Part shown: one piece after another, positions 1 to 18,107 of the stretch
How positions within the stretch are numbered: the stretch's first letter is position 1
Layout: each line of letters starts with the position of its first letter
Translations under genes and position numbers: made by a program
Assembly: GCA_913061505.1 (NCBI GenBank)
Contig: CAJXSO010000003.1
Span: 1 to 64,000 of the forward strand
Direction of reading: 5' to 3'
Source of the DNA: an uncultured Lutimaribacter sp.
GTDB lineage: Bacteria > Pseudomonadota > Alphaproteobacteria > Rhodobacterales > Rhodobacteraceae
Length of the DNA stretch: 64,000 nt
The notes under the pieces: model-generated
The model's input: the letters and a program-made list of their open reading frames with translations, nothing else
Told to the model about the DNA's origin: nothing
Database searches by the model: none

Positions 1-2
1 GG

Positions 3-458
3 TATTTTTCGGCAGTGTACGCCTTTGAGCCAGCCCGTGATACTTTCCAATGCTTGGAGCGCAATGTTTTTGAAAATGGAGATTACAATAAGGTCCGCTT
101 GTACAACGCTGCAGTAAGCGACGAGCGGTCTTATGTGGGAGTGAAACGTAGTTGGTTTCGGCTCTCTATTACCAGCACAGTGAGTGGAAAAGGTGACGTG
201 CCAGCAGTGCCTCTTGATGCATTAGGCCTAAACGATTTGCGTTTTTTAAAGCTGGATGTCGAGGGGTTTGAGTACCAAAGTCTGCACGGGGCTAAGGCTA
301 CGATAGAGACGTGTCGCCCAGCGGTGCTAATGGAAGTGAAGCCTGCTGAAGAAGAGCAGTTGCCAGAACCATATAAGGCAGAGAAGCTTTTGCTAGATAT
401 GGGTTTTAATGTGGTGCTCACAGCTGGCATCAACCGTCTTTACTACCCCTGTGATTAA
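3..458 (+). CDS. FkbM-family methyltransferase, 3' part (cut by window edge)
   Basis: The reading frame is open to the left edge, so only the last 151 residues are seen. The residues YAFEPARD at the left end match the SAM-binding region of FkbM-type methyltransferases, and KLDVEGFEYQSLHGA (about residues 82-96 of the visible part) is the family's K-x-D-x-E-G-x-E block. These enzymes O-methylate sugars or small molecules and often sit in surface polysaccharide or mobile loci. The base composition is clearly AT-richer than the rest of the window (runs such as tttttgaaaatggag). Together with the tRNA-like end at 591-606, this suggests the gene lies in an acquired island. Family call is good; substrate unknown. 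Confidence 0.8.
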   Translation, partial: YFSAVYAFEPARDTFQCLERNVFENGDYNKVRLYNAAVSDERSYVGVKRSWFRLSITSTVSGKGDVPAVPLDALGLNDLRFLKLDVEGFEYQSLHGAKATIETCRPAVLMEVKPAEEEQLPEPYKAEKLLLDMGFNVVLTAGINRLYYPCD

Positions 459-508
459 AGTGAATGACACTTTGGACCTTTGAAACGTAAGGTTCGTTGC
501 AGGCCTCT

Positions 509-529
509 AGGACCGCTTTTAGGACCGCT
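509..529 (+). repeat. Short direct repeat aggaccgct x2
   Basis: The 9-mer aggaccgct occurs at 509-517 and 521-529, in the non-coding stretch between the FkbM gene and the tRNA-like end. It could be an arm-type recombinase site of an integrated element, but two copies of nine bases is weak evidence. Nothing else is seen between 459 and 590. Confidence 0.3.
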
Positions 530-590
530 ACATATTTCAATGTGGAGTTTAAGTAACCGATTTTGTTGGTCTTTTTAGTCACTAAGGCCG

Positions 591-606
591 CCTCTCCTGG
601 GCACCA
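591..606 (+). other. tRNA-Leu 3'-end fragment, probable attachment site
   Basis: The 16 bases cctctcctgggcacca have the layout of a tRNA 3' end: a T-arm strand (cctct), a seven-base acceptor strand (cctgggc), discriminator a, and encoded CCA. The acceptor would pair with a gene starting GCCCAGG, which is typical of bacterial tRNA-Leu. No tRNA body lies upstream: the preceding bases do not form a T-loop. A terminator follows directly, as after a real tRNA gene. This is the usual scar of an integrative element that entered a tRNA 3' end. Inference from sequence form only. Confidence 0.5.
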
Positions 607-607
607 T

Positions 608-646
608 AAAAAACCGCCTACAGCCCCGCGCTGAGGCGGTTTTTTT
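608..646 (+). terminator. Rho-independent terminator after the tRNA-like end
   Basis: The arms aaaaaaccgcct and aggcggtttttt are perfectly complementary around a short loop, with T's after and A's before. It starts one base after the CCA of the tRNA-like fragment, so it was probably the terminator of that tRNA gene. It can work in both directions. Confidence 0.85.
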
Positions 647-755
647 GTGTCTGTCGAAGTAGATATTGGTTCATTGAAGCTGTGTGAATTTCTCCCCAGG
701 TGGTTGGTTTTATTTGGATAAATCCACGTAAACTTTTACGAGCACGGTTCCCGCC

Positions 756-1028
756 ATGGGCACCAGCCCTAAATTTATCGATGGCGCGCTGGCGTATCGC
801 TTGGCGCAGATGATGGACCCGGATCTTGACCCTGAAAAGCAGATGTTGCCTTGGATCAACCCTGCGTTTTCTGAAATTATTGCCGATAATAAATGCGCTT
901 TCCTCGATAAATCAGGCACCCGCCAATATGGCGTGATGGAGGAATTGGGCCGCGCGTGGCGCGAGGCGCGGCATATTGAAAAAACAGTGGTTGATGGCAA
1001 AAGCATTTGGGTTGTGACGCCGAAATAA
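756..1028 (+). CDS. Orphan 90-residue protein, possibly a gene remnant
   Basis: I do not recognise this protein. It looks coding: codon choice matches the window and it has a mixed globular composition (for example YRLAQMMDPDLDPEKQ near the N-terminus and SIWVVTPK at the end). There is no convincing ribosome binding site before ATG 756, and the frame stays open only back to a TAA at 729-731. It lies just inside the chromosomal side of the probable island edge. It may be the tail of a longer gene whose front was lost on integration, or a small independent gene. No function is proposed. Confidence 0.45.
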   Translation: MGTSPKFIDGALAYRLAQMMDPDLDPEKQMLPWINPAFSEIIADNKCAFLDKSGTRQYGVMEELGRAWREARHIEKTVVDGKSIWVVTPK

Positions 1029-1134
1029 GCGCTGCATTGGCCCCTGTTGGTGACGCCCCGTCATATCTCCGCGCGTTGCTTTACAGCGGGCCGCCGTGCC
1101 CCCTATCCTTTGGTCAGGAAAAAGGGGGGTTGGC

Positions 1135-2676
1135 ATGAACGGTGCGGAAAGTCTGGTTCATACATTGGTGAATTGCGGGGTGGATACGTGTTTTGCCAAC
1201 CCGGGCACCAGTGAAATGCATTTCGTGGCGGCGCTTGACCGTATCGCCGGTGTGAAATGCGTTTTGGGGCTGCAGGAAAATGTCGTAACTGGCATGGCCG
1301 ATGGCTATTTTCGCATGGCGCGCAAACCGGCGGCCACCTTGCTGCATTGTGGGCCGGGGTTGGCCAATGGCATGGCCAATTTGCATAATGCCCGGCGTGC
1401 GCGCAGTGCGGTGGTGAATGTGGTGGGCGATCAGGCCACCTATCACCGGCCCCATGATGCCCCGCTGACCGCCGATACCGAAGGCATGGCGCGCACGGTG
1501 TCAGATTGGGTGCGCACCACGACGGCTGCCGCAGATGTGGGGCGCGATGCGGCGCAGGCGGTGCAGGCCGCCATGACGCATCCGGGCCAGATTGCTACGC
1601 TGGTTTTGCCCTCGGATGCCAGCTGGAATGCGGGCGGCGTGCCGGCACAGCCCTTGCCCAGCCCGGCCGTGCAACCGGTGGATCAGGCGCGCATTGCCCA
1701 GGCGGCGCAGTTGTTGCGCAGTGGCGAAAAGGTGCTGTTGCTGTTGGCGGGCGGGGCTGTTTGGGCCGAGGGCCAAGCGCTGGCATGGGCCATCGCACAG
1801 CACAGTGGCGCCGATCTGATGGCCGATTACATGGCGTCGCATTTGCATCGTGGCCAAGGCCGGCTGCCCCTGGCGCGTGTGCCCTATGCCACTGAAAAAG
1901 CGTGCCAGGCGCTGGCCCCGTATCAGCATATCATCTTGGTGAATGCCAAGCCGCCCGTGGGCTTTTTTGCCTATCCTGATAAGCCCTCGGTGCAGCATGC
2001 ACCTGGTGCCAACCTGTTTACACTATCGCGCCCTGATCAAGATGCCCTTGCCACGCTGCAGGCCCTGGTGGCCGAATTGGGCGCGCCCATGGCGGCGATG
2101 CCGGCGGTGGGCCCGCGGCCCGGGCGCCCCAGTGGCGCTGTCACGCCCGAGGGTTTGGCCCAGGCGGTGGCGGCCTTGATGCCCGAGGGGGCCATTATCA
2201 GCGATGAAAGCGTGTCTTTCGGCCGCGGGTTCTACCCCCATACCTATGCCGCACCGGCCCATGATTGGTTGCATCTGGCGGGTGGCGCCATTGGCGAGGG
2301 GCTGCCCATGGCCACGGGCGCGGCTTTGGGCACAGGCGGTGGGCGGCGGGTGATCAGCCTGCAGGCCGATGGTTCGGCCATGTATTCGCTGCAGGCCCTA
2401 TGGACCCAAGCCCGCGAGAATTTGCCCTGCACCACCATCATTTTATCGAACCGCAAATATAACATCCTGATCGGCGAATATGGCAATGTGGGCGCCAACC
2501 CTGGCCCTACGGCCATGGCTATGCTGGATCTGGGCAACCCCGATCTGAACTGGCTGCAGCTGGCCAATGGCATGGGGGTCGAGGCGGCGCGCGCTGAAAC
2601 GCTGGATCAGCTCTGCGATCTGATGGCCCATAGCTTTGCCCAGTCTGGGCCGTTTTTGATCGAGCTTTGCATCTAA
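1135..2676 (+). CDS. Thiamine-diphosphate enzyme, acetolactate synthase-like
   Basis: A 513-residue member of the acetolactate synthase / benzoylformate decarboxylase superfamily. The N-terminal PYR domain contains FANPGTSEMHF (20-30) and the cofactor-activating Glu48 in LQEN. The C-terminal PP domain carries ADGSAMYSLQALW followed by SNRKYN, the Mg-ThDP binding motif (GDGS replaced by ADGS). The start at 1135 is chosen over an upstream in-frame ATG at 1096 because aaggggggt sits just before it. Databases often label such proteins acetolactate synthase large subunit, but the short form and the catabolic neighbourhood make a 2-oxoacid decarboxylase or lyase at least as likely. It converges on the TRAP permease gene, with a bidirectional terminator between them. 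Confidence 0.8.
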   Translation: MNGAESLVHTLVNCGVDTCFANPGTSEMHFVAALDRIAGVKCVLGLQENVVTGMADGYFRMARKPAATLLHCGPGLANGMANLHNARRARSAVVNVVGDQATYHRPHDAPLTADTEGMARTVSDWVRTTTAAADVGRDAAQAVQAAMTHPGQIATLVLPSDASWNAGGVPAQPLPSPAVQPVDQARIAQAAQLLRSGEKVLLLLAGGAVWAEGQALAWAIAQHSGADLMADYMASHLHRGQGRLPLARVPYATEKACQALAPYQHIILVNAKPPVGFFAYPDKPSVQHAPGANLFTLSRPDQDALATLQALVAELGAPMAAMPAVGPRPGRPSGAVTPEGLAQAVAALMPEGAIISDESVSFGRGFYPHTYAAPAHDWLHLAGGAIGEGLPMATGAALGTGGGRRVISLQADGSAMYSLQALWTQARENLPCTTIILSNRKYNILIGEYGNVGANPGPTAMAMLDLGNPDLNWLQLANGMGVEAARAETLDQLCDLMAHSFAQSGPFLIELCI

Positions 2677-2696
2677 GCGCGGTTGCGCATTGAATG

Positions 2697-2731
2697 AAAA
2701 AGGCCCGGGCCTTGTGCGCCGGGCCTTTTTC
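2697..2731. terminator. Bidirectional terminator between convergent genes
   Basis: The arms aaaaaggcccgg and ccgggccttttt flank a nine-base loop. A's on the left and T's on the right let it stop transcripts of both the ThDP enzyme (plus) and the TRAP permease operon (minus). Confidence 0.9.
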
Positions 2732-2754
2732 CTTTTTGCCATGCTGTTGGCCGC

Positions 2755-4740
2755 TTAGGCGGTGGCGGCCGTGGCCCCTTCGCGCCGGGCCATCACCACT
2801 GCGGGCACAGCCAACAGCAGGCCCAAAAGGGTTAGCATCAGGTGGCTTAGGCCCATCACGCCGCCCTCGGGTGCGGCCACCAAAAGCCCTGCAACAAACA
2901 GCAACACCCGCGCCGCCATGGCGCCTGGGCCTTTGGCCAATGGGCCAAAGAACGCCAGATAGCCTTGCAATGCGGCCGAGATAAACCACACGCCCAGCAG
3001 CGCGCAAACCAGCACAAAGGCCACCTCGGGTGCGCTGCCCTGGCCGATCAGTGCGGGGTTGAGCACAAAGAAGAAGGGCACAATGTAGATAACACCGCCA
3101 AGGCGCATGGCCTCTAGCCCGGTGCGCATCGGGCTGGCGCCTGCCATGCTGGCCGCGGCAAAGGCCCCCAGCGCCACTGGTGGGGTGATAAAGCTGACCA
3201 TGCCCCAATACAGAATGAACAGATGCACCGCCAATTCATTCAGCCCGGCTTGCACCAGGGCCGGGGCCAATACGATGGCCAAGAAGATGTAACAGGCTGT
3301 CACCGTCATACCCATGCCAAAGATAAAGGCGGTGATCGCCCCCATCAGCAGCAGCATCGGCACCGAATTGCCCGCCATATAGACCAGCTCGTTGGCCAAA
3401 GGCCCGGTAAGCCCGGTGGCCTGAAACGCGCCCACGATCATGCCAATGCCCAGCAGCACCGCCACCAGCTCGGACAGGGTGCGCCCCACCGAAACGATCA
3501 CATCGATCAGCCCATCCAGCGTCAGCCGGTCGCGTGGGTTTAACTGGTTTACGGCAAGCAGCAGCACCACGGCGTAAAACGGTGCGGTGGTTTCCCAGCG
3601 AAACGCCACCATCAAAAAGATCAGTAGCGCAAAAACGAACACATATTGCCAGCCGGCGCGCAGCGTGTCGCGCAGCACTGGCAGCGTGTCGCGCCCCAGC
3701 CCACGCAGGCCACGGCGCGCCGAATAGGCATCGACCTGGGCGAATAAGGCAAAGAAATACAGCAGCGACGGTATGGCCGCCGCCAGCATAATCTCGACAT
3801 AGGGTTTGCTAAGCCAGCTTGCGATCACAAAGGCGGTGGCGCCCATGATCGGTGGCATCAAAACCCCGCCTGTGGAGGCGCAGGCCTCGGTTGCGGCGGC
3901 GTAGCGTGGCGAGAAGCCGGATTTCTTCATCGCTGGAATAGACACCGCGCCGGTTGTCAGCACGTTCGAGATCACCGAGCCCGACATCGAGCCCATAAAG
4001 CCTGACGCAAAAATCGAAACCTTTGCCGCCCCGCCGCGATAATGGCCCACCAGCGCCATGGCGAGGTTGTTGAAAAACTTGCCGCCGCCGGTGAATTGCA
4101 GCACCGCCCCAAACAAGATGAAGCCGATCACCAAATTGCCAAATGCCCGCATGGGAATGCCAAACGAGGCCTCTGACGAGATCATGAAATAAGGGATCAC
4201 ATCGCGAAATGGCTGGCTAAAGCCGTTTAGCGGGTCGGGCACCTTATCGGCGAAAACGGGGTAGATGGAAAACAACAGCACAATGCCAAACAGCACCATC
4301 CCCCCGGCGCGGCGCGTGCCCTCGAGGATCAGTGCGTAAAACAGCATCGAGGCCCAAACCGCATGATCGGGGGCTGCGTATTCCCAGCCGGCATCCAGGC
4401 TTTGATCGGCGGTAAAGGCAAAAAACAGCGCCACGCCCATGGTAAGCAGGGCCAAGCCCCAATCATAGAGCGGCACGCGTGCCGATGCCGGGCCAACGGC
4501 GCGGAAGCACACGAAAGTAAGGCTTAGAAACAACCCTGCCAGCAGGTATAGATACATGCCCCCCAGCATCGAATACCCGCCAAGGCGCAGGTTGAACAAC
4601 TGGTTGACCGAAAGCGCAATGGCAAGCGTGGAACAGGTGAAAATAAACCAGCGGGCAGCCCCGCGATACACAACTTTCTCGGCGGCTTTTTCCGCCTCGA
4701 GCACAGATTGGCCTAGGGCACCAGAACGGCTGTCCTGCAT
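2755..4740 (-). CDS. TRAP transporter, fused small/large permease (TAXI type)
   Basis: A 661-residue integral membrane protein with many hydrophobic helices. The N-terminal quarter corresponds to the small DctQ-like subunit and the rest to the large DctM-like subunit, fused as is usual for TAXI-type TRAP systems. The central segments GFMGSMSGSVISNVLTTGAV and VLMPPIMGATAFV are typical of the fused permease family. It should import a carboxylate-type solute with a sodium gradient. The start at 4740 is preferred to the ORF extension at 4866 because gaaagaagg precedes it. It follows the matching receptor gene by 144 bases on the same strand. Substrate unknown. Confidence 0.9.
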   Translation of the reverse strand: MQDSRSGALGQSVLEAEKAAEKVVYRGAARWFIFTCSTLAIALSVNQLFNLRLGGYSMLGGMYLYLLAGLFLSLTFVCFRAVGPASARVPLYDWGLALLTMGVALFFAFTADQSLDAGWEYAAPDHAVWASMLFYALILEGTRRAGGMVLFGIVLLFSIYPVFADKVPDPLNGFSQPFRDVIPYFMISSEASFGIPMRAFGNLVIGFILFGAVLQFTGGGKFFNNLAMALVGHYRGGAAKVSIFASGFMGSMSGSVISNVLTTGAVSIPAMKKSGFSPRYAAATEACASTGGVLMPPIMGATAFVIASWLSKPYVEIMLAAAIPSLLYFFALFAQVDAYSARRGLRGLGRDTLPVLRDTLRAGWQYVFVFALLIFLMVAFRWETTAPFYAVVLLLAVNQLNPRDRLTLDGLIDVIVSVGRTLSELVAVLLGIGMIVGAFQATGLTGPLANELVYMAGNSVPMLLLMGAITAFIFGMGMTVTACYIFLAIVLAPALVQAGLNELAVHLFILYWGMVSFITPPVALGAFAAASMAGASPMRTGLEAMRLGGVIYIVPFFFVLNPALIGQGSAPEVAFVLVCALLGVWFISAALQGYLAFFGPLAKGPGAMAARVLLFVAGLLVAAPEGGVMGLSHLMLTLLGLLLAVPAVVMARREGATAATA

Positions 4741-4884
4741 GGCGCGGCACCTTCTTTCAGGATGGGTGGCATGGTGTTGGGCGACAATACTGGCCCCTGG
4801 CCTGCCCGTGGGTGACATAGGCGCAACAAGGGGGCCAAGGGGTGCAGCATGGCCTGGTGTGGCCATGCTGCCTGGGCTTAGCCC

Positions 4885-6045
4885 TTAGAACACAACGCTA
4901 AAGCCACCGGCCTTTAGGGCGTCGCGGCGCTTGGTTTCCCATGCCGCCTGCCAATCAGATGGGCCTTCTGCCTTTAGCTCTTCCCATGCTTTTTGCAGCG
5001 CCGCTTGGCGGGCCACCAGCATGTCGTTATGGGCTTGGTCGGCATCGCTCCATTTGCCGATCTCACGATAGTAGCGGATTGCGCCATCGTGATAGGGGGC
5101 AACCCACTGGAAGTTTTGCTTATCCAGCGCCCAGCCATTGATACCCGGGGCCTTGCCTTTGTAGGCCTCGAAATATTCGTGCATGGCCTTGGTCATGTTA
5201 TAGGTCAGCTCTTCGTCTTGTTCTGCATAGGTCATCAGAACAGGGTAGGCATAGCCCGCTGTTGGTGTGCCCGGGGTGCCGTCGATTGTGGCGCCAACGG
5301 TTGCATTCATCGCGCTAAAGAAGGGCGCTACAGCGGCCATACGGGCCATGGCCTCTTTGTCGGTGGGGTCGATCGGGGGCCAATATACCCCACGCGGGCT
5401 GGAGGCGGCCTCGTAAGCCATGCCCGAGTTGGTCGAGGCAAAGGCCGCATCGGTGCTGCCATCTACCATGCCTTTCCAGCTGTCGCCAAAGCCGCCGAAA
5501 TCGACGCGCTCTACGTCGTCCCAGGTTAGGCCGCCATAGGCCAGATAGGCCTCGTTATTCACGTTCAGCGCGGGTGCGCCTTTTACCCAGCTGACGCGCA
5601 TGCCTTTCAGATCGGAATAGGTAAAGCCCTCGCATTTGGGCTTGCCCACTTTTTCACAGGCCTCGGCGGCCACCGCCAGGGCCAGGCCCACCGCGCCACC
5701 ATTGTTGGCCGCCAGCACGCGCACGGGCTGCGGGCCCCAGTTTTCGGCGCCAAACTGGAATACGCCCTCTTGGGCCATGAACGAGCCGCCCACACCATTG
5801 GCGGAAAATTGCACCTTGCCCTGGCGCACAGGCTCGGTCCGGGCGATGTCGTTTTTGCCCGGCAAAACCCGCAGGTTGATGCCCAGTGCCTCTTGCAGCG
5901 CGGCGCCGATCGCGACCGATTGGTTATACCCGGCCGAGCCCGTGCCATAGGCTGTCCAAACCACCTGGCTTGGCAGTTTGACCTCGGCTGCAACGGCTGA
6001 ACCTACAAGTGCACCCAGCACTGCGGCAACGAATGTATTGCGCAT
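4885..6045 (-). CDS. TAXI-family TRAP solute receptor
   Basis: A 386-residue periplasmic binding protein. It starts with a classical signal peptide (MRNTFVAAVLGALVGSAVAA) and continues with WTAYGTGSAGYNQ and TEPVRQGKVQFSANG, as in the TAXI (immunogenic protein) family. It is longer than typical TAXI receptors of about 320 residues. The start at 6045 is supported by aaagggagg upstream and by the signal peptide; the ORF extends in frame to 6123 without support. It delivers its ligand to the fused permease encoded just downstream. A good sigma-70-like promoter lies at 6095-6123. Confidence 0.9.
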   Translation of the reverse strand: MRNTFVAAVLGALVGSAVAAEVKLPSQVVWTAYGTGSAGYNQSVAIGAALQEALGINLRVLPGKNDIARTEPVRQGKVQFSANGVGGSFMAQEGVFQFGAENWGPQPVRVLAANNGGAVGLALAVAAEACEKVGKPKCEGFTYSDLKGMRVSWVKGAPALNVNNEAYLAYGGLTWDDVERVDFGGFGDSWKGMVDGSTDAAFASTNSGMAYEAASSPRGVYWPPIDPTDKEAMARMAAVAPFFSAMNATVGATIDGTPGTPTAGYAYPVLMTYAEQDEELTYNMTKAMHEYFEAYKGKAPGINGWALDKQNFQWVAPYHDGAIRYYREIGKWSDADQAHNDMLVARQAALQKAWEELKAEGPSDWQAAWETKRRDALKAGGFSVVF

Positions 6046-6094
6046 TGTGTCCTCCCTTTGAATGATCGCCGGCGTTTTTATGTGGCGTAACGGA

Positions 6095-6123
6095 ATGACA
6101 AAATGTGGCCGCCTTTCTGTCAA
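6095..6123 (-). promoter_or_regulatory. Sigma-70-type promoter of the TAXI-TRAP unit
   Basis: On the minus strand, a perfect -35 box TTGACA (6118-6123) is followed after exactly 17 bases by a -10-like TGTCAT (6095-6100). This puts the transcript start about 40 bases before the receptor start codon. The surrounding intergenic stretch also has partly repeated motifs (gtaacg, and gtcaa...ttgac), which might bind a regulator. Confidence 0.65.
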
Positions 6124-6218
6124 CGATTACAGAAATTGACGTAACGTGACTTTGGCGGTTTTGAATATGTGACGGAATATCTTTTTCAATCGGTCCCGCA
6201 GTGCGAAAAGGCCGCGCG

Positions 6219-6254
6219 AAAAAGCCGCCCCCCACAGTGTGATCCGGGGCGGCG
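6219..6254 (-). terminator. Terminator after the acyl-CoA ligase gene
   Basis: On the minus strand the arms GCCGCCCC and GGGGCGGC enclose a loop and are followed by TTTTT. It lies just after the ligase stop codon and before the TAXI promoter, so the ggt-peptidase-ligase series and the transporter are probably separate transcripts. Confidence 0.75.
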
Positions 6255-6268
6255 GCCCTGATTTTTCC

Positions 6269-7804
6269 CTAGCTATCCCATTGCTCGCGCAATTCGCGTT
6301 TGAGAATCTTGCCAATGGCGCTGCGGGGCATTTCTGGCAAAATCTTTAGCCCCTTTAGCCGCTGGGTTTTGCCCAGCATGGCATTGGCGCCGGCCAAGAT
6401 ATCATCGGCGGTGGCTTGGGCCTTTAGCGTGACATAAGCCACTGGAATTTCGCCCCAATCTGCGTCTGGCACGCCAACAACAGCGGCCTCGTGCACCGCC
6501 GGGTTACGCGCCAGCATATCTTCCAGATCGCAGGCATAGATGTTGAAACCGCCAGAAATGATCATGTCTTTCTTGCGGTCCATCAGAATAAGAAACCCAT
6601 CTTCATCCAGCCGGCCCATATCGCCCGTGCGCATATAGCTGTGGCCTTCGGGGCTGATCCACACCACAGCCCGGGTGGCATCGGGGGCGTTGCGATAGCC
6701 GCGCATCAAGGTGGGCGAGCGGCCGACGATCTCGCCGATCTCGCCGGCGGGCACCTCGGCGCCTGTGTCATCGATAAAGCGCACATCGCCCCCCAGCACG
6801 GGCTTGCCCACGGTGTGCAGCTTGTCGGGGTTGGCGGTGCAATCCAAAATCGTGCTCACGCCCCCCTCGGTCATGCCATAGATGTTAATCATCCGCCCCG
6901 GCCAGCGCTGCAGCACCTGCGCCAACAAAGGCGGGGTTAGCGGTGCCGAGGTGCAAAGCTTTACCTGAAAGGCCGACAGATCGAACCTGTCGAAATCGGG
7001 GTGTTCGATCAAGCGCCTGATCTGCACCGGCACCAGCATCGTATGCGACACGCGGTATTGTTCGGCCAGCTGCAAAAACCGCAGGCTGTCGAATTTCTGC
7101 ATCAACAGAACATGGCTGCCCTGGCCCAGGGCGGGCAGCAGCGTGACCAGGGTGGTGTTGGAATAGATCGGCGTTGAAATCAGGCAAACGGCGCTATCGT
7201 CAAAGCCATAGTTGCGAAAGCGAAAGATCTGCCTGTCGCGAAAGCGGGCATCATGCTCGATCCCCTTGGGGTGGCCGGTGGTGCCCGAGCTATAGAGAAT
7301 ATCGAGCAGATCATCGGGGCCAATGGCCACGGGCTGTGCAGGCGCATGGCCCGCCGCCTGTGCCCAAAAGGCGGATAGATCTTCACACTCCAGCCCTGGC
7401 CCGGCCTGCGCATCGCCCAAAACCAGCACCGCACCGCTGTTTTCGCCCATGCGTTGCAGCGCCTCGGGTGCCGCAGAGGTGGGCAGCGTGGCCACAGCGG
7501 CCCCAGCCGCCACAATGGCCATATAGGCGCAGACATGATCCACCGTAACACCCGCCAGCGTGGCCACCACAGCGCCCGGCCCAATGCCGCGCGCCTGCAA
7601 CAGCCCCGCGCCCTGGTCCATGCGCGCCACAAATTGCGCGCGCGTCAGGTGCTGGCCCTCGGCGCTGAGGCAGGGGGCATCTGGCGCGGCTTGGGCCAGG
7701 CGGCGCAGGCGGGTTGGCAGATCGATATAGTCCTCGCCCGGCAAGGGCGCGGGCACCAGCGGCGCCAAGGGCGCGACGGGGGTTTGGGCGGTTGTTTGTG
7801 TCAT
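6269..7804 (-). CDS. AMP-dependent acyl-CoA synthetase/ligase
   Basis: A 511-residue member of the ANL superfamily, which activates a carboxylic acid with ATP and joins it to CoA. The P-loop-like motif YSSGTTGHPKG lies near residue 165, then IYGMTEGG, YMRTGDMGRLDEDG, the hinge KKDMIISGGFNIY and the catalytic lysine near the end in GKILKRELRE. The start at 7804 (after acaggga) is preferred; the ORF runs on to 8431 only because the frame is open inside the neighbouring peptidase gene. The closest type is the medium/long-chain or aryl acid ligases. Its neighbours suggest it acts on an acid released by the peptidase or transferase encoded upstream, but the substrate is not shown. Confidence 0.88.
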   Translation of the reverse strand: MTQTTAQTPVAPLAPLVPAPLPGEDYIDLPTRLRRLAQAAPDAPCLSAEGQHLTRAQFVARMDQGAGLLQARGIGPGAVVATLAGVTVDHVCAYMAIVAAGAAVATLPTSAAPEALQRMGENSGAVLVLGDAQAGPGLECEDLSAFWAQAAGHAPAQPVAIGPDDLLDILYSSGTTGHPKGIEHDARFRDRQIFRFRNYGFDDSAVCLISTPIYSNTTLVTLLPALGQGSHVLLMQKFDSLRFLQLAEQYRVSHTMLVPVQIRRLIEHPDFDRFDLSAFQVKLCTSAPLTPPLLAQVLQRWPGRMINIYGMTEGGVSTILDCTANPDKLHTVGKPVLGGDVRFIDDTGAEVPAGEIGEIVGRSPTLMRGYRNAPDATRAVVWISPEGHSYMRTGDMGRLDEDGFLILMDRKKDMIISGGFNIYACDLEDMLARNPAVHEAAVVGVPDADWGEIPVAYVTLKAQATADDILAGANAMLGKTQRLKGLKILPEMPRSAIGKILKRELREQWDS

Positions 7805-7913
7805 GCGTGTCCCTGTTTTGGCTGTTTTAGTGGCATTGGGGCGGTGGTGCTGCGATGAAGCAAGCCAAAATTGCCCTTGCGTCAGGCGCAGCGCCCCAAA
7901 ACGCCGCGTCATT

Positions 7914-9332
7914 TCACATGGCGGAAACTGCGCAATCGCCCGGGCCGCCAGTGGCGCCGATATCCCAAAACAGCCCCGCCATGCAGTGCAGCGCATCGCG
8001 GCAGACCGGGGCCAAAACATGCTCGTTTGGCGCATGCTGCGAGCATCCCCGGTAGGAATGTGGCACCCAAACCGTGGGCAGGCCCAGAATTTCGCTAAAG
8101 CAATCATTGGGCAGCGAGCCGGCCAGATTTGGTAAAATATGCGGGTCTTTTCCGCTGGTTTCGGCCAGCGAGCGGCGCACGAATTGCACCCAAGGATGGC
8201 CGGGCGCCAGCCGCGTGGCTTTGAAAAAGCCCCGCGCGTCGGGCACGATTTCGACACGATCAAACCCGTGCCGATCCAGGTGCCGGCGCAGCGCGGGCAA
8301 AATATCGTCAACATCCGTGCCCACCACAAACCGCAATTGGCAGGTGGCGCGGGCACTGGCGGAAATGGCGTTGACAGGCGCGGCTGGCACGCCGCTTTCC
8401 ATGGCCAGAATGGCAAAGCTGTTCCAGCCATAGGCGCGCTCGGCCGGGGTCAGGGCCTCTTCGCCCCAGTCTAGATCTATGCTGGGGCCGGTGTTGCCAT
8501 CCTCTGGCATGGCAATGGGCAGATCACGCAGCGCTGTGCGAATATCGTCGGTCAGGCTGGTGGGGCGCCATTCGGGCACTTGTATCTGGCCGCGGGCATC
8601 GGTGATGGTGGCCAGGGCCTGTGCCAAAATCATGGCAGGGTCAGCCAGCAGCCCCCCCCAATTGCCCGAATGATGCGCGCCCTCGCGCAGATCTACGCGT
8701 AGATCGAAATTCACCCCCCCGCGCGAGCCCATGAAAACCGTGGGCGTATCGGCCTGCAGGCGCGGCCCATCCGAGGCGATCAGCACATCGGCGGCCAAGT
8801 CATGTTGATGGGCGCGGAAAAATTCGGCCATCCCGGCAGACCCTGTTTCCTCGCTCATCTCGATCACGATACGGCTGTTAAACCCCAGCGCACCGCGGGT
8901 GGCCAGCACCGCCTCGATTGCGGCAATATTGATCAGGTGTTGCGATTTGTTATCGGCACTGCCGCGCCCATAAAGCCGCTCGCCCCGGCGGGTAAGGCTA
9001 AAGGGCGCCAGCCCCTCGTGCCACATGCCATGCTGGGCGCGGATCACGTCGCCATGGCCATAGCTGAGCACTGTTGGCAGATCCGCGCCCTCGTGGCGCT
9101 GGGCAATCAAAAACGGGCCGCCGTTTGGGTTTGGGTTGGGGTGGATGGTGCAGCGATAGCCCGCCGCCTGCAGGCGGGGCTGCATGGCCTGTTCCAGATA
9201 GGCCTGCAGATGCGGCGCGGCATCCGGGTCTTGGCTTTCGGTGGGGTGGCGCACCAGATCTGCAAGCTCGGTTTCAAACTGGCCGCTGTCGAAATAGCGG
9301 GCCACTGCGGCCAGGGCTGCGGCGCGGCTCAT
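7914..9332 (-). CDS. M20-family metallopeptidase
   Basis: A 472-residue zinc amidohydrolase of the M20/ArgE-DapE-CPG2 type. SYGHGDVIR holds the first metal histidine and the following catalytic Asp, YGRGSADNK the bridging Asp, and EMSEETGS the general-base Glu and metal Glu. A dimerisation domain follows, with a final histidine in WVPHSYRGCSQHAPNE. It removes an acyl or amino-acid group from a small peptide or amide. The ATG overlaps the ggt stop codon (ATGA), so the two are probably translated together. The frame is open further upstream, but the overlap start and the family's N-terminus fit 9332. Confidence 0.9.
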   Translation of the reverse strand: MSRAAALAAVARYFDSGQFETELADLVRHPTESQDPDAAPHLQAYLEQAMQPRLQAAGYRCTIHPNPNPNGGPFLIAQRHEGADLPTVLSYGHGDVIRAQHGMWHEGLAPFSLTRRGERLYGRGSADNKSQHLINIAAIEAVLATRGALGFNSRIVIEMSEETGSAGMAEFFRAHQHDLAADVLIASDGPRLQADTPTVFMGSRGGVNFDLRVDLREGAHHSGNWGGLLADPAMILAQALATITDARGQIQVPEWRPTSLTDDIRTALRDLPIAMPEDGNTGPSIDLDWGEEALTPAERAYGWNSFAILAMESGVPAAPVNAISASARATCQLRFVVGTDVDDILPALRRHLDRHGFDRVEIVPDARGFFKATRLAPGHPWVQFVRRSLAETSGKDPHILPNLAGSLPNDCFSEILGLPTVWVPHSYRGCSQHAPNEHVLAPVCRDALHCMAGLFWDIGATGGPGDCAVSAM

Positions 9333-10903
9333 ACGGGCGCCCCGGCCACGGCATCGCCCCAGGGCGACATGATTTCCGTGCAGCCCGAATTCAGCGCCCC
9401 CCGCCGCATCACGCCCGCAGGGCAGGCAAAGGCATAGGGAAAGATGGTGCGCTTGGTCGTTACCACATCGCGGGTTTTGGCAAGGGCGGCCAGCACATCG
9501 GCCGGCAGCGCCTCGTCTGCCACCACGCCCGGGCCCCCCGAGACATCGATGCGCGGGCTGTGAAAGGCCGCTTCCAGATCCATGCCGCAATCCAGCATCA
9601 AGCCCGCCAGCTGGGCCACCGCGCTGACAATCTTGCGCCCACCCGAGGCCCCGATGGCAAAGCGCATATCGCCCCGCTGGCCAATGGCGGGGCACACATT
9701 CATCAAACAGCGCTTGCCCGCCCCCAGCGAATTTGGCCGCCCCTGAACAGGATCAAACCACATGATGCCATTGTTCATCAGCAGCCCGGTGCTGCCCGAC
9801 ACCACCCGCGCGCCAAAGATCGACAACAGGGTTTGGGTTTGGGCCACCATATTGCCATGCCGATCCACCACCGAGAAATGCGTGGTGCAGCCCGGGGCGG
9901 TGGGGCTTTCGCCGCTGTCGCCCATCTGCGACAGGCGGTGGGCATAGGCCTGATCTAGCCCATCGGCAAAGGCCACATAGGTGTCTGGCGTGGGTGTGGC
10001 GGGCAAATCGCGGCTGGCCATCACCCCCATGGCCTGTTGCAGGGTGGGGCCAGCGGTTAGCCCGGGCACCACATGCATCATGGCATCGCGATAGCCAAAG
10101 CTAAGCGCAGGCTGAAATTCGGCGCGATAGGCCTGCAGATCGGCATGCGACAGGCTGCCGCCTTTGGCCTGAATATCCGCCGCCATGGCAGCGCCGACAT
10201 CGCCATCGTATAGTTCGCGCGGGCCGTTGGCGGCAATCTGGGCCAATGTATCGGCCATGCGCGATTGATCCAGCCGCTTATCGGCCAGCGCTGTCCAGCC
10301 GCTGATGGTGGGCCAGTGGCCGTCTTCCAAAAACAGCGCGGCGGCATCTGGGTCTTTGGCCAATTCGCGGGTGGTCGAGGCAATAACGAGGGCTGCAAAC
10401 CAATCGACCACCATGCCCTGTTTGGCGTGATCGATGGCGGGGGCCAGCAATTCGGCCCATGGCATTTTGCCATAGCGCGCATGGGCTTGGCCCAGCCCAT
10501 CTACCACGCCGGGCACGGCCACGGCGGTGGCGCCTTGCACGTTGCGGTCGCCCTCGACATGCTCCCATGGGAACAGATCGCCTGCTTTTCCTGCGCCAGA
10601 TAGCGGGTAATCGGCAGGGTTCAGCGCCGCAGGTGCCCGCATGCCGTGGTTCAGCGCCTGCGCCTGGCCAGTATCGGCGCGCCACAGCATCATGGCGCCG
10701 CCACCGGCGGGGCCGCTCATCCAGGGTTCCAGAACGCCGATGGCAAAAGAGGTGGCCACTGCCGCATCGACCGCATCGCCACCCGCCGCCAGCACCGCGG
10801 CGCCTGCCTCGGCGGCAAGCCTGTGCTGGGCTGCTACAACGCCATGTTCGGTTTCGATCACCGTTTTGCGGATGACCATGGAATTAGATAGGTTCACGCT
10901 CAT
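9329..10903 (-). CDS. Gamma-glutamyltransferase-like Ntn hydrolase
   Basis: A 524-residue gamma-glutamyltransferase family protein. The self-processing site is TTHFSVVDRHGNMVA (the first or second Thr being the new N-terminus). GSTGLLMNNGIMWFDP and GASGGRKI follow in the small subunit. There is no signal peptide, so it is probably cytoplasmic, like the short GGTs rather than the periplasmic glutathione enzyme. The start at 10903 follows gagggagg. It leads an apparent operon with the M20 peptidase and the acyl-CoA ligase. This suggests stepwise release of an acid from a gamma-glutamyl or other amide compound, but that is inference. Confidence 0.85.
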   Translation of the reverse strand: MSVNLSNSMVIRKTVIETEHGVVAAQHRLAAEAGAAVLAAGGDAVDAAVATSFAIGVLEPWMSGPAGGGAMMLWRADTGQAQALNHGMRAPAALNPADYPLSGAGKAGDLFPWEHVEGDRNVQGATAVAVPGVVDGLGQAHARYGKMPWAELLAPAIDHAKQGMVVDWFAALVIASTTRELAKDPDAAALFLEDGHWPTISGWTALADKRLDQSRMADTLAQIAANGPRELYDGDVGAAMAADIQAKGGSLSHADLQAYRAEFQPALSFGYRDAMMHVVPGLTAGPTLQQAMGVMASRDLPATPTPDTYVAFADGLDQAYAHRLSQMGDSGESPTAPGCTTHFSVVDRHGNMVAQTQTLLSIFGARVVSGSTGLLMNNGIMWFDPVQGRPNSLGAGKRCLMNVCPAIGQRGDMRFAIGASGGRKIVSAVAQLAGLMLDCGMDLEAAFHSPRIDVSGGPGVVADEALPADVLAALAKTRDVVTTKRTIFPYAFACPAGVMRRGALNSGCTEIMSPWGDAVAGAPV

Positions 10904-10984
10904 CGCTGCCCTCCCTCTGCCGCGCTGCTTGGGCGATAGCAGCCGATTTGCGGGGTTTGCGCAACACCGCAATACCCCGTGGGC

Positions 10985-11476
10985 CTAGGCGGCGGCGCCG
11001 CGCAGCCTGCGCCCCATGTGGATGGCGGCCCATATCAGCAGGCCCAGCAGCACAACCCTGATCAGGGACAGCAGGTTGAAATTAAAGAAAATGAATTGCT
11101 GTTGAATGCGCTCAACCTGGTTTGGGCTAAAGGACAGCAGAAAATATTCAGACAGATCGTGGAACTGGGCAAAAAACGAAAAGCCGGCGCAGATAAGAAA
11201 GGCGCTAAAGAACAAGCGCCGCAGCAGCAGGGGCAGATAGAAGATACATAAAAACACAGCCCCCATCTGCAGTTTCTGGCGCAGCAGGGTTTCGGCCTTT
11301 TGATGGGTGATGGTGTGCAGCAGCACCTCTACCTCGACGAAATCGGCCCACAGCACCAAAACATAAATCAGCCCAACCGCATAGATGATGGTGGATAGGG
11401 CATAAAACGGGGTCAATTCCCCCATCAGAAACGGGGGTTGCCTGCGCAGATCGGCGCGAAAGATATTGATCAACAT
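10985..11476 (-). CDS. Integral membrane protein of unknown function
   Basis: A 163-residue protein with about four predicted membrane segments (around residues 25-50, 75-95, 97-115 and 135-155) and positively charged ends. I do not recognise the family. The start at 11476 is chosen because gagg lies eight bases upstream; an ATG two codons earlier (11482) is also possible. It is followed on the same strand by the gamma-glutamyltransferase gene 81 bases later, but nothing links the two functions. Confidence 0.7.
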   Translation of the reverse strand: MLINIFRADLRRQPPFLMGELTPFYALSTIIYAVGLIYVLVLWADFVEVEVLLHTITHQKAETLLRQKLQMGAVFLCIFYLPLLLRRLFFSAFLICAGFSFFAQFHDLSEYFLLSFSPNQVERIQQQFIFFNFNLLSLIRVVLLGLLIWAAIHMGRRLRGAAA

Positions 11477-11639
11477 TCCCATCCTCGCGCCCGTATCTTT
11501 TTTTGGTTTTGGCAAGACTAGCGCAGCGCAGGGGCTGGTCAAAGAAATATTTTGATTTCAGAATATTTTAAGCAAGGCACAGACACACCCCGCAGCATTC
11601 AGCCTGCGCGTATGTTTCTGCCAATTTGCAAATGGGGTT

Positions 11640-11715
<76 letters not shown>

Positions 11716-11760
11716 ATCATTTTCAGGCGGTGTCGCCTGTGCGCCGGTATCTAGGCAAAG

Positions 11761-11796
11761 CCGCGGGCGGGATCAAGCGAAAAAAACCGCCCGCGG
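11761..11796. repeat. Perfect 10-bp inverted repeat with A/T run in the loop
   Basis: ccgcgggcgg (11761-11770) and ccgcccgcgg (11787-11796) are exact reverse complements around a 16-base loop. It lies just after the TIGR02300 gene stop. A normal terminator would carry T's after the stem. Here, on the minus strand, the T run is inside the loop, so its role is uncertain. Confidence 0.6.
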
Positions 11797-11804
11797 TGTG
11801 TTAT

Positions 11805-12128
11805 TTAATCTTCGTCTTCCGATGCCACATCTGTCAGCTCGTCAAGCGAGACATTGTCGTCGTCGTCTTCTTCCAGCAGATCATCATCAAGATCCATGTC
11901 GACATCATCGTCGTCCAGCAGATCATCATCACTATCCGCCACATCGGCGACTTTCATTTTCTTGGTCGCTGCATCCTCGGCATCGGCTGCAATCATGCTG
12001 CGCTTGCCGGTATCCAATTCAACCACTTCCCCCGTGTAGGGGCTGACGATTGGCGATTTGTTCAGGTCGTAAAAGCGTTTCCCCGTGGTCGGGCACACGC
12101 GCTTTACGCCCCATTCTTCCTTGGCCAT
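11805..12128 (-). CDS. TIGR02300-family protein with acidic tail
   Basis: A 107-residue protein. The N-terminus MAKEEWGVKRVCPTTGKRFY and DLNKSPIVSPYTGE matches the TIGR02300 family of alphaproteobacteria, which keeps a zinc-ribbon-like CP..TGK..YDLNK block. From about residue 65 on, the chain is nearly all Asp and Glu (runs of DDD and EED), so the tail is probably unstructured. The function of the family is not known. The start at 12128 follows agaggga; an 18-residue in-frame extension has no support. Confidence 0.9.
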   Translation of the reverse strand: MAKEEWGVKRVCPTTGKRFYDLNKSPIVSPYTGEVVELDTGKRSMIAADAEDAATKKMKVADVADSDDDLLDDDDVDMDLDDDLLEEDDDDNVSLDELTDVASEDED

Positions 12129-12206
12129 GGAGATCCCTCTTTTGTATCTCTTGTCTTGTGGGCAATCCGCGTCCCCTGCCATAACAGGGGCGGTGTGTCA
12201 AAGGCT

Positions 12207-12935
12207 ATGTCGCAAATGCGGCATTTGATCGGGCTGGATATGGGCAAACATCTGATTGGCGGCAACCCTCCTATCGAGGTTTTGCTAAAAAAATCTGGTC
12301 GGGCCAAGCGCATGTCGCTGCGCCTGTCGCGGCTAGATCGCAGCGTCACGCTGACGATACCCACCCATGTGCCTGTGGCGCAGGGGCTGGCCTTTGCCGA
12401 GGAAAAAGCCGATTGGCTGCGCCAGCATTTGGCCGATGCCCCCAGCTGCACCCCCGTGGCGCTGGGGGCATTGCTGCCGGTCGAGGGGCAGATGCTGCGG
12501 TTGCAACAGGCCGAAAGCGGGCGCAGCCCACAGATACAGGGCGATTGCTTGCTGGTGCCACGGGGCGGGGCGGGGCTGGCTGCGCGTTTGCAGGGCTTTT
12601 TAAAGGTGCTTGCCCGCGAACGGCTGGTGGCCGCCTCGGATCACTATGCCAGCCGTTTGGGGCGTGGCTACCAGCGGCTTAGCCTGCGCGATACGCGCTC
12701 GCGCTGGGGGTCATGCACGGCGGATGCGGGGCTGATGTATTCGTGGCGGCTGATCATGGCGCCCCCCGATGTGCTGCGCTATGTCGCCGCCCACGAGGTG
12801 GCGCATTTGCGCGAAATGAATCACTCGCCTGCGTTCTGGGCCTTGGTGCAGCAGCTTTACGGCGATTATCGCCCGCCGCGCCAATGGTTGCGCCAGAATG
12901 GGGCGGGGTTGCACAGCTACCGATTCGTGGATTGA
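12207..12935 (+). CDS. YgjP/DUF45-family metallopeptidase
   Basis: A protein of about 242 residues with the zinc motif HEVAHLREMNHSPAFW near the C-terminus (HExxH plus a downstream His), preceded by LRDTRSRWGSC, the hallmark of the YgjP/SprT-like WLM clan. The N-terminal half has the RAKRMSLRLSR strand typical of DUF45 proteins. Substrates of these proteases are not known. In-frame ATGs at 12207, 12216 and 12240 are possible; none has a clear ribosome binding site, so the start is uncertain. The frame is open far upstream across the TIGR02300 gene on the other strand, which I treat as chance. Confidence 0.85.
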   Translation: MSQMRHLIGLDMGKHLIGGNPPIEVLLKKSGRAKRMSLRLSRLDRSVTLTIPTHVPVAQGLAFAEEKADWLRQHLADAPSCTPVALGALLPVEGQMLRLQQAESGRSPQIQGDCLLVPRGGAGLAARLQGFLKVLARERLVAASDHYASRLGRGYQRLSLRDTRSRWGSCTADAGLMYSWRLIMAPPDVLRYVAAHEVAHLREMNHSPAFWALVQQLYGDYRPPRQWLRQNGAGLHSYRFVD

Positions 12936-12966
12936 CCTGCCCCGGGTTTGTGATCACATATCACCC

Positions 12967-13614
12967 ATGCTTGTCACATCCCGCCCAGATCCAACCCCAT
13001 CGGCGCATGATCGCGTTTATCGCGGGCTGCGCACCCGAATCATGCATGGCGATATGGCACCGGGCCAGGCGCTGACATTGCGGGGCATCGGCAAGGAATT
13101 TGGCGTCTCGATGACGCCCGCGCGCGAGGCGGTGCGGCGCCTGGTGGCCGAAGGCGCGCTGACGCTTAGCAGCTCGGGGCGGGTTTCAACGCCGGAATTG
13201 TCCAATGACCGAATCGAAGAGCTGGCCGCGCTGCGCAGCCTGATCGAGGTAGAGCTGGCCAGCCGCGCCCTGCCGCGCGCCCACCTGGCCCTGATCGAGC
13301 GGTTGCAAACCATCAATGCCAGCGTCAGTGAAATGGTCGTGAAACAAGATGCGGTGGGCTATATCCGCACCAACCTGGAATTTCACCGCACCTTGTATTT
13401 GCGTGCCCAGGCCCCGGCCATGCTGGCCATGGCTGAAACCGTGTGGTTGCAGCTGGGCCCCACGATGCGCCGGCTATACGGGCGGCTGCAGCGCAAAGAG
13501 CCGCCTCATAACCACAGGCTGATTTTGGCCGCTTTGCGCGCGGGCGACGAACCGGGCCTGCGCCTTGCGGTGCGCACCGATGTCACCCAGGGCCTGCGGA
13601 TGCTGGCGGGTTAA
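12967..13614 (+). CDS. GntR-family (FCD-type) transcription regulator
   Basis: A 215-residue regulator. The winged helix lies at about residues 10-75 (VYRGLRTRIMHGDMAPGQ, then GKEFGVSMTPAREAVRRL as the recognition helix). A helical FCD-like ligand domain follows, with EFHRTLY supplying the typical metal/ligand histidine region. Its stop codon overlaps that of the convergent acetoacetyl-CoA synthetase gene by four bases (ttaa). The ligand and target genes are not evident. Confidence 0.88.
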   Translation: MLVTSRPDPTPSAHDRVYRGLRTRIMHGDMAPGQALTLRGIGKEFGVSMTPAREAVRRLVAEGALTLSSSGRVSTPELSNDRIEELAALRSLIEVELASRALPRAHLALIERLQTINASVSEMVVKQDAVGYIRTNLEFHRTLYLRAQAPAMLAMAETVWLQLGPTMRRLYGRLQRKEPPHNHRLILAALRAGDEPGLRLAVRTDVTQGLRMLAG

Positions 13615-15575
13615 GCCCCCGCCAGATAATCCTGCGCATAGCTGTCATACCAGCCCAGGCAGGCCGGGTTTGCCATGGCATCGGCGGTGGCCACCTTGGC
13701 CATGGGCTGGCCCAGCAGGCGCTTTTTGATCGGCACTTCCATCTTTTTGCCGGTCAGGGTGTAGGGAATATCGGGTGCGGCGCAGATGATATCTGGCACA
13801 TGGCGCGGCGAGGCGCGCTGTTTCAGATCGCCAATGATGCGCGCTTGCAACGCGTCATTCAGCGTGGCCCCGTCGGCCAGTTTCAAAAACAAGATCATGC
13901 AGCTGGGTTTGCCCAGATATTCCAGATCCACCACCAAGCTATCGGCCACCTCGGTGCGGTCTTCGACGACGCGGTAAATATCGGCCGTGCCCATGCGAAT
14001 GCCGTGGCGGTTGATCGTGGCATCCGAGCGGCCATAGATGATGGCGCCGCCCTGGGGGCTGATTTTCACCCAATCGCCATGGCGCCAGACGCCCGGGAAG
14101 GTTTCGAAATAGCTGGATTTATAGCGCGCATCGCCCGCATCACCCCAAAAATACAGCGGCATCGAGGGCATGGGTGCGGTGCAAACCAGCTCGCCCACAT
14201 CATCGATCACAGGTTGGCCCTGATCGTCAAAGGCCTGCACCGCAGCACCCAGGGCGCGGCATTGCATCTCGCCTATGCGCACGGGCAGCATGGGGTTGCC
14301 TGCCAAAAAGGCGCCGGCAAAATCGGTGCCCCCGGCAATGGGGGCCAGCCAGATATGCGGGCCGATCTTGTCCCATATCCAGGCATAGGCCTCGGGCGGC
14401 AGGGGCGAGCCGGTTGCCCCCACAGCGCGCAGGCGTGACAGATCGGCAATTTTGGCAGGCTCGATATCGGATTTGGCCATGCCAATAAACCAGGCCGCCC
14501 CAGCGCCAAACGAGGTAACCCCCGCCTGTTCGATAAAGCGCCACAGGCGCCCGCCATCGGGGTGGTTTGGGTTGCCCTCGGCCAGGGCAATGGTGGCGCC
14601 GGTCAGCAGCCCGCCGACCTGTGCGTTCCACATGATCCAGCCGGTGGAGGTGAACCAGCTAAACGTGTCATCCGGGCCCAGATTGCCATGCAAGCCCTGC
14701 AGCACCAAATGCTCGACCACAATACCGCCATGGCCATGCACGATGGGTTTCGGGCTGCCCGTCGTGCCCGATGAATAGACCACCCAAAGCGGGTGATCAA
14801 AGGGCAGCGGCACTGGCGCCTGGCGGGCGGTGCCTGCCTGCAAACCTGCCCAATCATGGGCTGTGGTTTGCAACGGATCAATCGTGCCCGGCCCATCCAG
14901 GCTGATCCAATGCTTCAGCGTGGGAAGGCCCTGCAGCAGCGCTTGCACCTCGCTGCTGCGGTCGCGCCACTTGCCTGCATGGTCATAGCCCGTGGCGGTA
15001 AACAGCGCTTTTGGCTCGATCTGGCGGAAGCGTTCCAAAACCGTGGGCGCCCCCATATCTGGCGCGCAAAGCGACCAGATCGCCCCCAGCGAGGCACAGG
15101 CCAGAAACGCCACAATGGTTTCCTTGTTATTGGGCAAATAGCCCACCACCCGGTCGCCGCGGGTGATGCCAAGGGCCTGCAGGCTGGCGGCCAGGGTGGC
15201 AACCTGCGTTTGCAGCGCATCCCATGTCAGGGTGGTATATGTGCCGTCTTCGGCCTGATGAATGATTGCCGGGTGGCCGGGGCGCACATGGCGCATCACC
15301 TGATCTGCATAATTCAGGCTGGCGCCTTCAAACCACTTGGCGCCGGGCATATCAGGGGTGCCGATCACCGCGCTATAGGGCGTGGGGCTGGTCAGGCCGT
15401 GATAGTCCCATACCGCCTGCCAAAACCCTGTCAGATCTGTGATCGACCACTGCCAAAGCGCATCGTAATCGGCAAATTCCCGGCCCTGCTGTGCCAGCCA
15501 GCCCATAAACTGTGCCATGTTGCTGGCGTTTGCAAACCCGGCGCTGGGCGTCCAGACACCATCGATCACAGCCAT
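13611..15575 (-). CDS. Acetoacetyl-CoA synthetase
   Basis: A 654-residue ANL-superfamily ligase that makes acetoacetyl-CoA from acetoacetate, ATP and CoA. The full length, VYSSGTTGSPKPIVHGHGG, the FTSTGWIMWNAQVGGL segment and the C-terminal TLTGKKMEVPIKKRL block with the catalytic lysine all fit this family rather than acetyl-CoA synthetase. The start at 15575 is preceded by ggggaggg; the in-frame ATG at 15599 is less likely. It probably feeds ketone bodies or polyhydroxybutyrate carbon back to central metabolism. It converges with the GntR regulator. Confidence 0.92.
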   Translation of the reverse strand: MAVIDGVWTPSAGFANASNMAQFMGWLAQQGREFADYDALWQWSITDLTGFWQAVWDYHGLTSPTPYSAVIGTPDMPGAKWFEGASLNYADQVMRHVRPGHPAIIHQAEDGTYTTLTWDALQTQVATLAASLQALGITRGDRVVGYLPNNKETIVAFLACASLGAIWSLCAPDMGAPTVLERFRQIEPKALFTATGYDHAGKWRDRSSEVQALLQGLPTLKHWISLDGPGTIDPLQTTAHDWAGLQAGTARQAPVPLPFDHPLWVVYSSGTTGSPKPIVHGHGGIVVEHLVLQGLHGNLGPDDTFSWFTSTGWIMWNAQVGGLLTGATIALAEGNPNHPDGGRLWRFIEQAGVTSFGAGAAWFIGMAKSDIEPAKIADLSRLRAVGATGSPLPPEAYAWIWDKIGPHIWLAPIAGGTDFAGAFLAGNPMLPVRIGEMQCRALGAAVQAFDDQGQPVIDDVGELVCTAPMPSMPLYFWGDAGDARYKSSYFETFPGVWRHGDWVKISPQGGAIIYGRSDATINRHGIRMGTADIYRVVEDRTEVADSLVVDLEYLGKPSCMILFLKLADGATLNDALQARIIGDLKQRASPRHVPDIICAAPDIPYTLTGKKMEVPIKKRLLGQPMAKVATADAMANPACLGWYDSYAQDYLAGA

Positions 15576-15657
15576 ATCAAGCCCTCCCCGCTGATCCATG
15601 CGGGCAGAGTTTCGGGCGGGCGCGGCGCTGTCAAGCAGATGCGCGCCCGCCGTGGCG

Positions 15658-16146: not shown

Positions 16147-16243
16147 TTGGAAATCCCTCGTCGCTTGGGTTTGCGTTTCATACGGGCAAGGATATAGGGT
16201 CGCGCGTAGTGCAAGACCAATGATATATTTGGGAGATCCTTGG

Positions 16244-18012: not shown

Positions 18013-18107
18013 GCCGCCAAAGACGACATCGCCGCAGGTCGCATTTGCGCGCGCCGGGCGGTGCTGTGCTGGGCCATGCTGGGTGGCAGTTATATCAGAG
18101 ACTGCAT

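Follow-up and report, generated by a model that had tools for sequence, protein, structure and literature searches.

Integrative islands that regenerate a tRNA gene and leave a displaced fragment of it are standard, and they are the subject of Islander (PMC4383910). Many integrations have been described in Sinorhizobium, involving 25 of 52 tRNA genes (PMC11476347), and prophages of the Rhodobacteraceae are reported from tRNA-Leu and tRNA-Thr genes (PMC8224337). Mycobacteriophage Ms6 crosses over in the T-loop, and altering its short core redirects it to a different tRNA gene (PMC1762012). Tycheposons, as described in PMC10872708, carry cargo, border a tRNA gene and use a tyrosine recombinase, with tRNA-Met and XerD named. 

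The locus studied here resembled the Islander-type islands in its regenerated tRNA gene, its displaced 3' fragment and the tyrosine integrase of its relatives (PMC4383910). Unlike in those islands, the repeat included the terminator and about 100 further bases, and the integrase and interior were seen in relatives only. The Rhodobacteraceae prophages belong to the same bacterial family and have tRNA-Leu and tRNA-Thr among their reported sites (PMC8224337), but no capsid or terminase match was obtained among the scanned frames of two related elements, in genomes G153 (8 of 14 frames) and G147 (7 of 19). Ms6 likewise integrates at tRNA 3' ends; however, it uses tRNA-Ala genes and its core change was engineered, whereas here unlike genes (Leu, Thr) are used naturally (PMC1762012). 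The likeness to Tycheposons is by description alone. In the literature searched we found no paper on DUF6538 together with an integrase, and a limited search on integrases and differing tRNA genes gave no description that we recognised as the GGACC-repeat family presented below.

The assembly under study (G000) is a 3.01-Mb draft in 100 contigs. The window, meaning the whole stretch of DNA that was analysed, comprises bases 1-64,000 of its contig C3; since the window begins at base 1 of C3, that contig holds no sequence to its left. Comparisons were made with 295 genomes of the family (G-numbers) and a collection of viral contigs (among them L165). G001 was the sole genome of the same genus among the relatives searched. 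C-numbers denote contigs, C51 being the G000 contig that ends near an intact tRNA-Leu(CAG). Judged from sequence comparison, window bases 1-590 are most probably (probability about 0.93) the right end of an integrative element at the 3' end of tRNA-Leu(CAG) that uses a tyrosine integrase, with 591-606 as its attR core. The features are collected in Table 1.

Table 1. Features at and around the displaced tRNA-Leu(CAG) end in the window
Feature	Position	Strand	Basis
FkbM-domain methyltransferase gene, C-terminal 151 codons, last cargo gene, cut by contig start	3..458	+	PF05050, phrog_8156
Tandem arm-like repeat GGACCGCTTTTAGGACCGCT near the putative right end of the element	510..529	+	1 window match, 0.01 expected
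Spacer from arm-like repeat to core, 61 bp	530..590	+	length 60-61 bp among 7 right ends
CCA-bearing displaced 3' end of tRNA-Leu(CAG), putative attR core	591..606	+	16-mer search, intact C51 gene
Direct repeat common to C51:115-285	591..761	+	160/171 identical, first 69 identical
Terminator-like hairpin and T-run	611..646	+	by eye
Open frame of 90 aa, kind unclear, may not be a gene	756..1028	+	no family match
TGGGCACCA, matching the terminal 9 bases of tRNA-Leu, at the right-hand border of the repeat; candidate second core	757..765	+	by eye
Thiamine-pyrophosphate enzyme gene, chromosomal flank	1135..2676	+	PF02776, PF02775

The initial annotation had described a 16-base, CCA-bearing tRNA-Leu 3' end without a body, followed directly by a terminator. 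Both descriptions were confirmed. The scar CCTCTCCTGGGCACCA had no tRNA body ahead of it, and ARAGORN on the whole window returned a single tRNA, a tRNA-Ala at 11640-11715. The hairpin with its T-run was read by eye in both copies of the repeat described below. The intact tRNA-Leu with the same ending, expected elsewhere in the genome, was found on C51 (270-356, minus strand; anticodon CAG), where the terminal bases matched the scar at 16 of 16 positions. With up to two mismatches allowed, the scar 16-mer occurred at two sites in the assembly, namely the scar itself and the end of this tRNA; a third copy of the core was not found in G000 at that threshold, and the reversed pattern gave 0 matches in the whole assembly.

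The likeness between the two sites continued well past the tRNA end. Window 591-761 (plus strand) and C51:115-285 formed a direct repeat of 171 bp without gaps, identical at 160 of 171 positions (94%). The first 69 bases, holding the tRNA end and the terminator, were identical, and the other 102 matched at 91 positions (split counted by eye). Because the likeness spans 171 bp at 94%, the scar match is not due to chance. C51 continued for 114 bases past the repeat and then ended. Both marks of an island were thus present in one genome, an intact tRNA ending in the scar bases and a bodiless 3' fragment; they lay on two contigs in G000 (C51 and C3), whereas G147 and G153 each had them on a single contig, equally oriented and an island's length apart.

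To the left of the scar, an AT-rich FkbM methyltransferase gene had been proposed, and the domain matches (PF05050, E 6.8e-15; phrog_8156 methyltransferase, E 4.3e-22) and base composition bore this out. The GC content of window 1-590 was 0.471 (GC3 0.483) against a mean of 0.615 for the remainder, and none of 1257 sliding windows of 590 bases had GC as low. Only the last 151 residues of the protein are visible, because the contig begins at window base 1. Its designation as surface-sugar cargo is a guess; what is visible is the end of a single FkbM-domain gene. Among plasmids it matched 11 records, every one below 60% identity.

Just inside the scar, 61 bp from the core, lay the rare tandem motif GGACCGCTTTnnGGACCGCT. 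Shuffles predicted 0.01 matches to the arm-like repeat in the window (up to two mismatches), where one was present. This tandem GGACCGCT repeat 61 bp ahead of the right core was placed as in the GGACC-repeat family (60-61 bp). The exact motif occurred at eight places in 5 of the 295 family genomes, and no control match was noticed in the same table; with two mismatches allowed, G000 had four places and the reversed control two. All eight adjoined a tRNA 3' end or an apparent one. In six of them, all right ends, 60 or 61 bp separated the motif from the core behind it, and the remaining two (C51 and G001:C451) were left ends; viral contig L165 held a seventh right end. At the first place in G069, ARAGORN found no tRNA, yet a longer tRNA 3' half was present. 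At the second the core was read by eye only, and an intact tRNA was seen neither there nor for L165. Six of the seven motif-bearing viral contigs (L166-L171, with tandem GGACCGCT) had no tRNA end within 170 bases on either side of the motif, so the motif alone is no proof of an element end.

Arrangements of this kind with both ends were present in relatives. G147 had tRNA-Leu(CAG) and then the same scar 22.8 kb on, on a single contig, and G153 had 12.55 kb between two core copies on one contig starting inside an apparent tRNA-Leu. An integrase-like frame came first after the left repeats in both, and the integrase was the first gene after the tRNA in G153, G147, G261 and G001. The G153 integrase matched the Phage_integrase domain at E 5.2e-16, with a DUF6538 match below the cut-off. 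Elsewhere in the G153 element (8 of its 14 frames were scanned), the frames included ones for a second DUF6538/integrase-like protein, a DUF5906/primase-like protein, HNH and SNase-domain proteins, and those of G147 (7 of 19 scanned) transporter parts, an aldehyde dehydrogenase, an AMP-binding enzyme, GCV_T and a LysR regulator; the cargo therefore varies between elements.

Matches to the G153 integrase at E 1e-50 or better were found in at least 8 of 295 family genomes, among the matches listed and with at most five candidates scored per genome. They occupied at least 14 places, and at five of these ARAGORN found a tRNA close before the integrase: Leu-CAG in G147, G261 and G295:C18, Thr-CGT in G001 and Thr-TGT in G295:C24. 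At G295:C22 a tRNA-Ser lay further off. No tRNA was found by ARAGORN at 8 of the 14 within the stretch fetched; these eight include G153, which starts inside its tRNA-Leu, and G141, which has Thr-CGT-like cores 16.4 kb apart. The two G295 integrases at Leu-CAG (C18) and Thr-TGT (C24) were identical across 432 residues, and their DNA was 99.8% identical over 1,721 bp starting about 20 bp past the tRNA, where an assembly error is possible. The arm-like repeats of G295 (GGAACACTTTTT) were unlike GGACC. G261:C26 carried a tandem pair at tRNA-Leu(CAG), 19.6 kb apart, with integrases 96% identical. Searched against 50,697 phage records (at 1e-20) and against the viral contigs, the G153 integrase matched nothing; among plasmids it had one match (30% over 55% of the query), a Ruegeria sp. 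TM1040 protein annotated as DUF6538. The 22-base tRNA-Leu end had no match in the viral contigs.

Among 31 stretches downstream of tRNA-Leu(CAG), two held a second copy of its end (up to two mismatches), as a 21-base repeat 4.3 kb on in G010 and a 24-base repeat 11.1 kb on in G019. A 399-aa integrase-like frame stood just inside the second copy in G010 (by eye), and G008 had a Phage_integrase match about 1 kb past the tRNA. Given these elements in relatives, G010 and G008 included, tRNA-Leu(CAG) is a recurrent insertion site. Our tentative view, held at a little short of even odds, is that the element family may keep one integrase type and its arm repeats while moving among tRNA genes as different as Leu-CAG, Thr-CGT and Thr-TGT. 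Its attP would hold the 3' end of the tRNA concerned, at least sometimes with the terminator, so that hardly more than an exchange of the short core would be needed for retargeting.

The integrase itself was not found at the element ends of G000, where C51 and C3 both end inside the element and so an integrase beside the tRNA is not seen. Three Phage_integrase matches were present in the assembly (C9, C11 and C4), none of them at these ends, and the C11 match is presumably the chromosomal XerC, judging by its surroundings. The G153 integrase had no G000 match at E 1e-50 (at most five candidates scored), nor was it found in 60 further small contigs (six of which, C95-C100, showed neither G nor C, probably being masked as N, and were unreadable), in C51, in the window or in the first 20 kb of C13. 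The same contigs gave no FkbM match beyond that of the window.

The last 55 bases of C51 were identical at 53 positions to the left end of an element that bears an integrase in the congener G001. There, an intact tRNA-Thr(CGT) lies upstream of the integrase frame, whose ATG stands 116 bases past the point where the first repeat begins; close to the contig end, the frame departs early from the integrase sequence. All five left ends compared had three GGACC repeats at 12-bp steps. These began 47 bp (G001), 56 bp (G153), 57 bp (G147) and 57 bp (G261) after the CCA, whereas in C51 the distance was 214 bp, so that the C51 end departs from the 47-57 bp of the family though its three repeats are correctly stepped. 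The extra stretch of about 155 host-like bases (window 607-761, C51 115-269) was the part of the 171-bp repeat beyond the CCA, and from its far end the C51 arm repeats were 59 bp away. The repeat terminates in ATGGGC and the window copy then has ACCA; hence TGGGCACCA is present twice, once where the tRNA ends and once at window 757-765. Either the element carried a long piece of host DNA in its attP, or the left crossover took place at the second TGGGCACCA site.

G000 also carried the ends of what appears to be a second element. The final base of C54 was also that of tRNA-Thr(CGT), and C13 started with 186 AT-rich bases (GC 0.441), after which 187-283 held a GGACC repeat and, 61 bp on, a tRNA-Thr 3' end. 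From these contig ends, G000 very probably holds two elements of the GGACC family, all four of whose junctions fall at contig ends or close to them. The second showed all the marks of the tRNA-Leu(CAG) element. C13 had been considered as the continuation of C51 on the strength of the common motif and was rejected, being the right end of the element at tRNA-Thr(CGT). As for the order and distance of C51 and C3, their two junctions lie on different contigs.

On the other side of the scar, the claim that the island lies to the left agreed with the comparison to G001: window 1141-19221 was collinear with G001:C347 at 89% DNA identity. The thiamine-pyrophosphate enzyme encoded there carried both of its domains, and the congener protein was 98% identical. 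At the DNA level, window 656-1130 matched neither G001 nor any of 10 other relatives searched, and because it is absent from G001 the age of the flank next to the scar, as old chromosome, is not itself confirmed. The 90-aa frame within this region matched nothing in Pfam or PHROGs and nothing among the plasmids and viral contigs; it is perhaps no gene, or a remnant.

The surroundings of tRNA-Leu(CAG) were also compared. The tRNA adjoined an epimerase gene at 26 of 30 loci, that of G000 included, and the congener sequence broke 49 bases past the tRNA. Ribonuclease D was present in 11 of the 31 downstream stretches, G000's included (some of them short), at 131 bp or less from the last 16 bases of the tRNA in six. 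As a marker of the ancestral empty site it was rejected: the G000 copy lies on C40 beside another apparent tRNA (by eye), so no empty site follows from it. Elsewhere in the window, an AT-rich stretch downstream of tRNA-Ala(GGC) (10990-11640) was collinear with the congener, and the 3' end of that tRNA had no second copy in the window or in C3 64001-84000.

The odd C51 junction gives rise to an alternative that we regard as unlikely but still of some weight. The left junction would lie outside the tRNA, at the second core-like site 155 bp downstream (TGGGCACCA), and the repeat would stem from recombination between element copies at the two sites or from an earlier excision that captured host DNA in attP; the locus would still be an island, with a different crossover alone. 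The distance of the C51 arm repeats from the far repeat end, close to the spacing in four relatives, speaks for it, as does the window copy ending in the tRNA's own 9 bases. However, C51 keeps only TGGGC there, without ACCA, and the repeats of G153 also run past the CCA (38 bases, 36 alike, by eye), so that an extended likeness in attP is in itself nothing unusual. The related suggestion that a second element, or its left remnant, lies to the right of the scar, as in the G261 tandem, would turn 607-761 into element DNA. It draws on the C51 likeness passing the terminator, on the existence of such tandems and on the gap at 656-1130 in G001, but the window has no arm motif to the right, G000 lacks a third core and G001 is collinear from 1141 on; we consider it very improbable.

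That the element is a prophage or its remnant, as distinct from a non-viral island, seems improbable to us, though less so than such a tandem. Prophages of this family are reported from tRNA-Leu and tRNA-Thr genes (PMC8224337), the G153 element encodes primase-like and HNH proteins and one weak tape-measure-like match (E 0.0045), and the right end L165 lies on a contig of the viral collection. Against this stand the lack of capsid and terminase matches in the scanned G153 and G147 frames and of integrase matches in the phage records and viral contigs at the threshold given above. We give hardly any credence to the idea that the tRNA end came to lie here without integration, by segmental duplication or through misjoining or mixing in the assembly. 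The draft is fragmented and both junctions are at contig ends, but neither process accounts for the arm repeats and how they are spaced, or for the likeness of the C51 end to an integrase-bearing left end, and relatives show the layout on single contigs; strain mixing could still account for the odd 155 bp.

The C51 tRNA, the 171-bp repeat, the arm motif and the integrase-bearing relatives together point to 591-606 as the attR of a tyrosine-integrase island. The reading of the locus as a scar of site-specific integration into a tRNA gene is likewise supported by the C51 tRNA, the long repeat and the relatives with the same ends. In such an island, the integrase would bind the GGACC arm repeats together with the core in the 3' part of the tRNA gene. 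Strand exchange would occur at the left edge of the repeat, in the T-stem or T-loop region, and the element's own tRNA end and terminator would restore the tRNA gene. Cargo such as the FkbM-domain gene would ride inside the element.

The element is of an ordinary kind, with related elements using tRNA-Leu or tRNA-Thr genes in the same bacterial family, and with one slightly unusual junction. The initial reading stands, and the family of elements behind it is modestly interesting. The result sets the boundary of mobile and chromosomal DNA at base 591 and shows that insertion at tRNA-Leu(CAG) recurs in the bacterial family, and the end motif helps to locate further elements. The identical integrases at two tRNA genes in one genome would, if true, make the natural retargeting of integrases testable.
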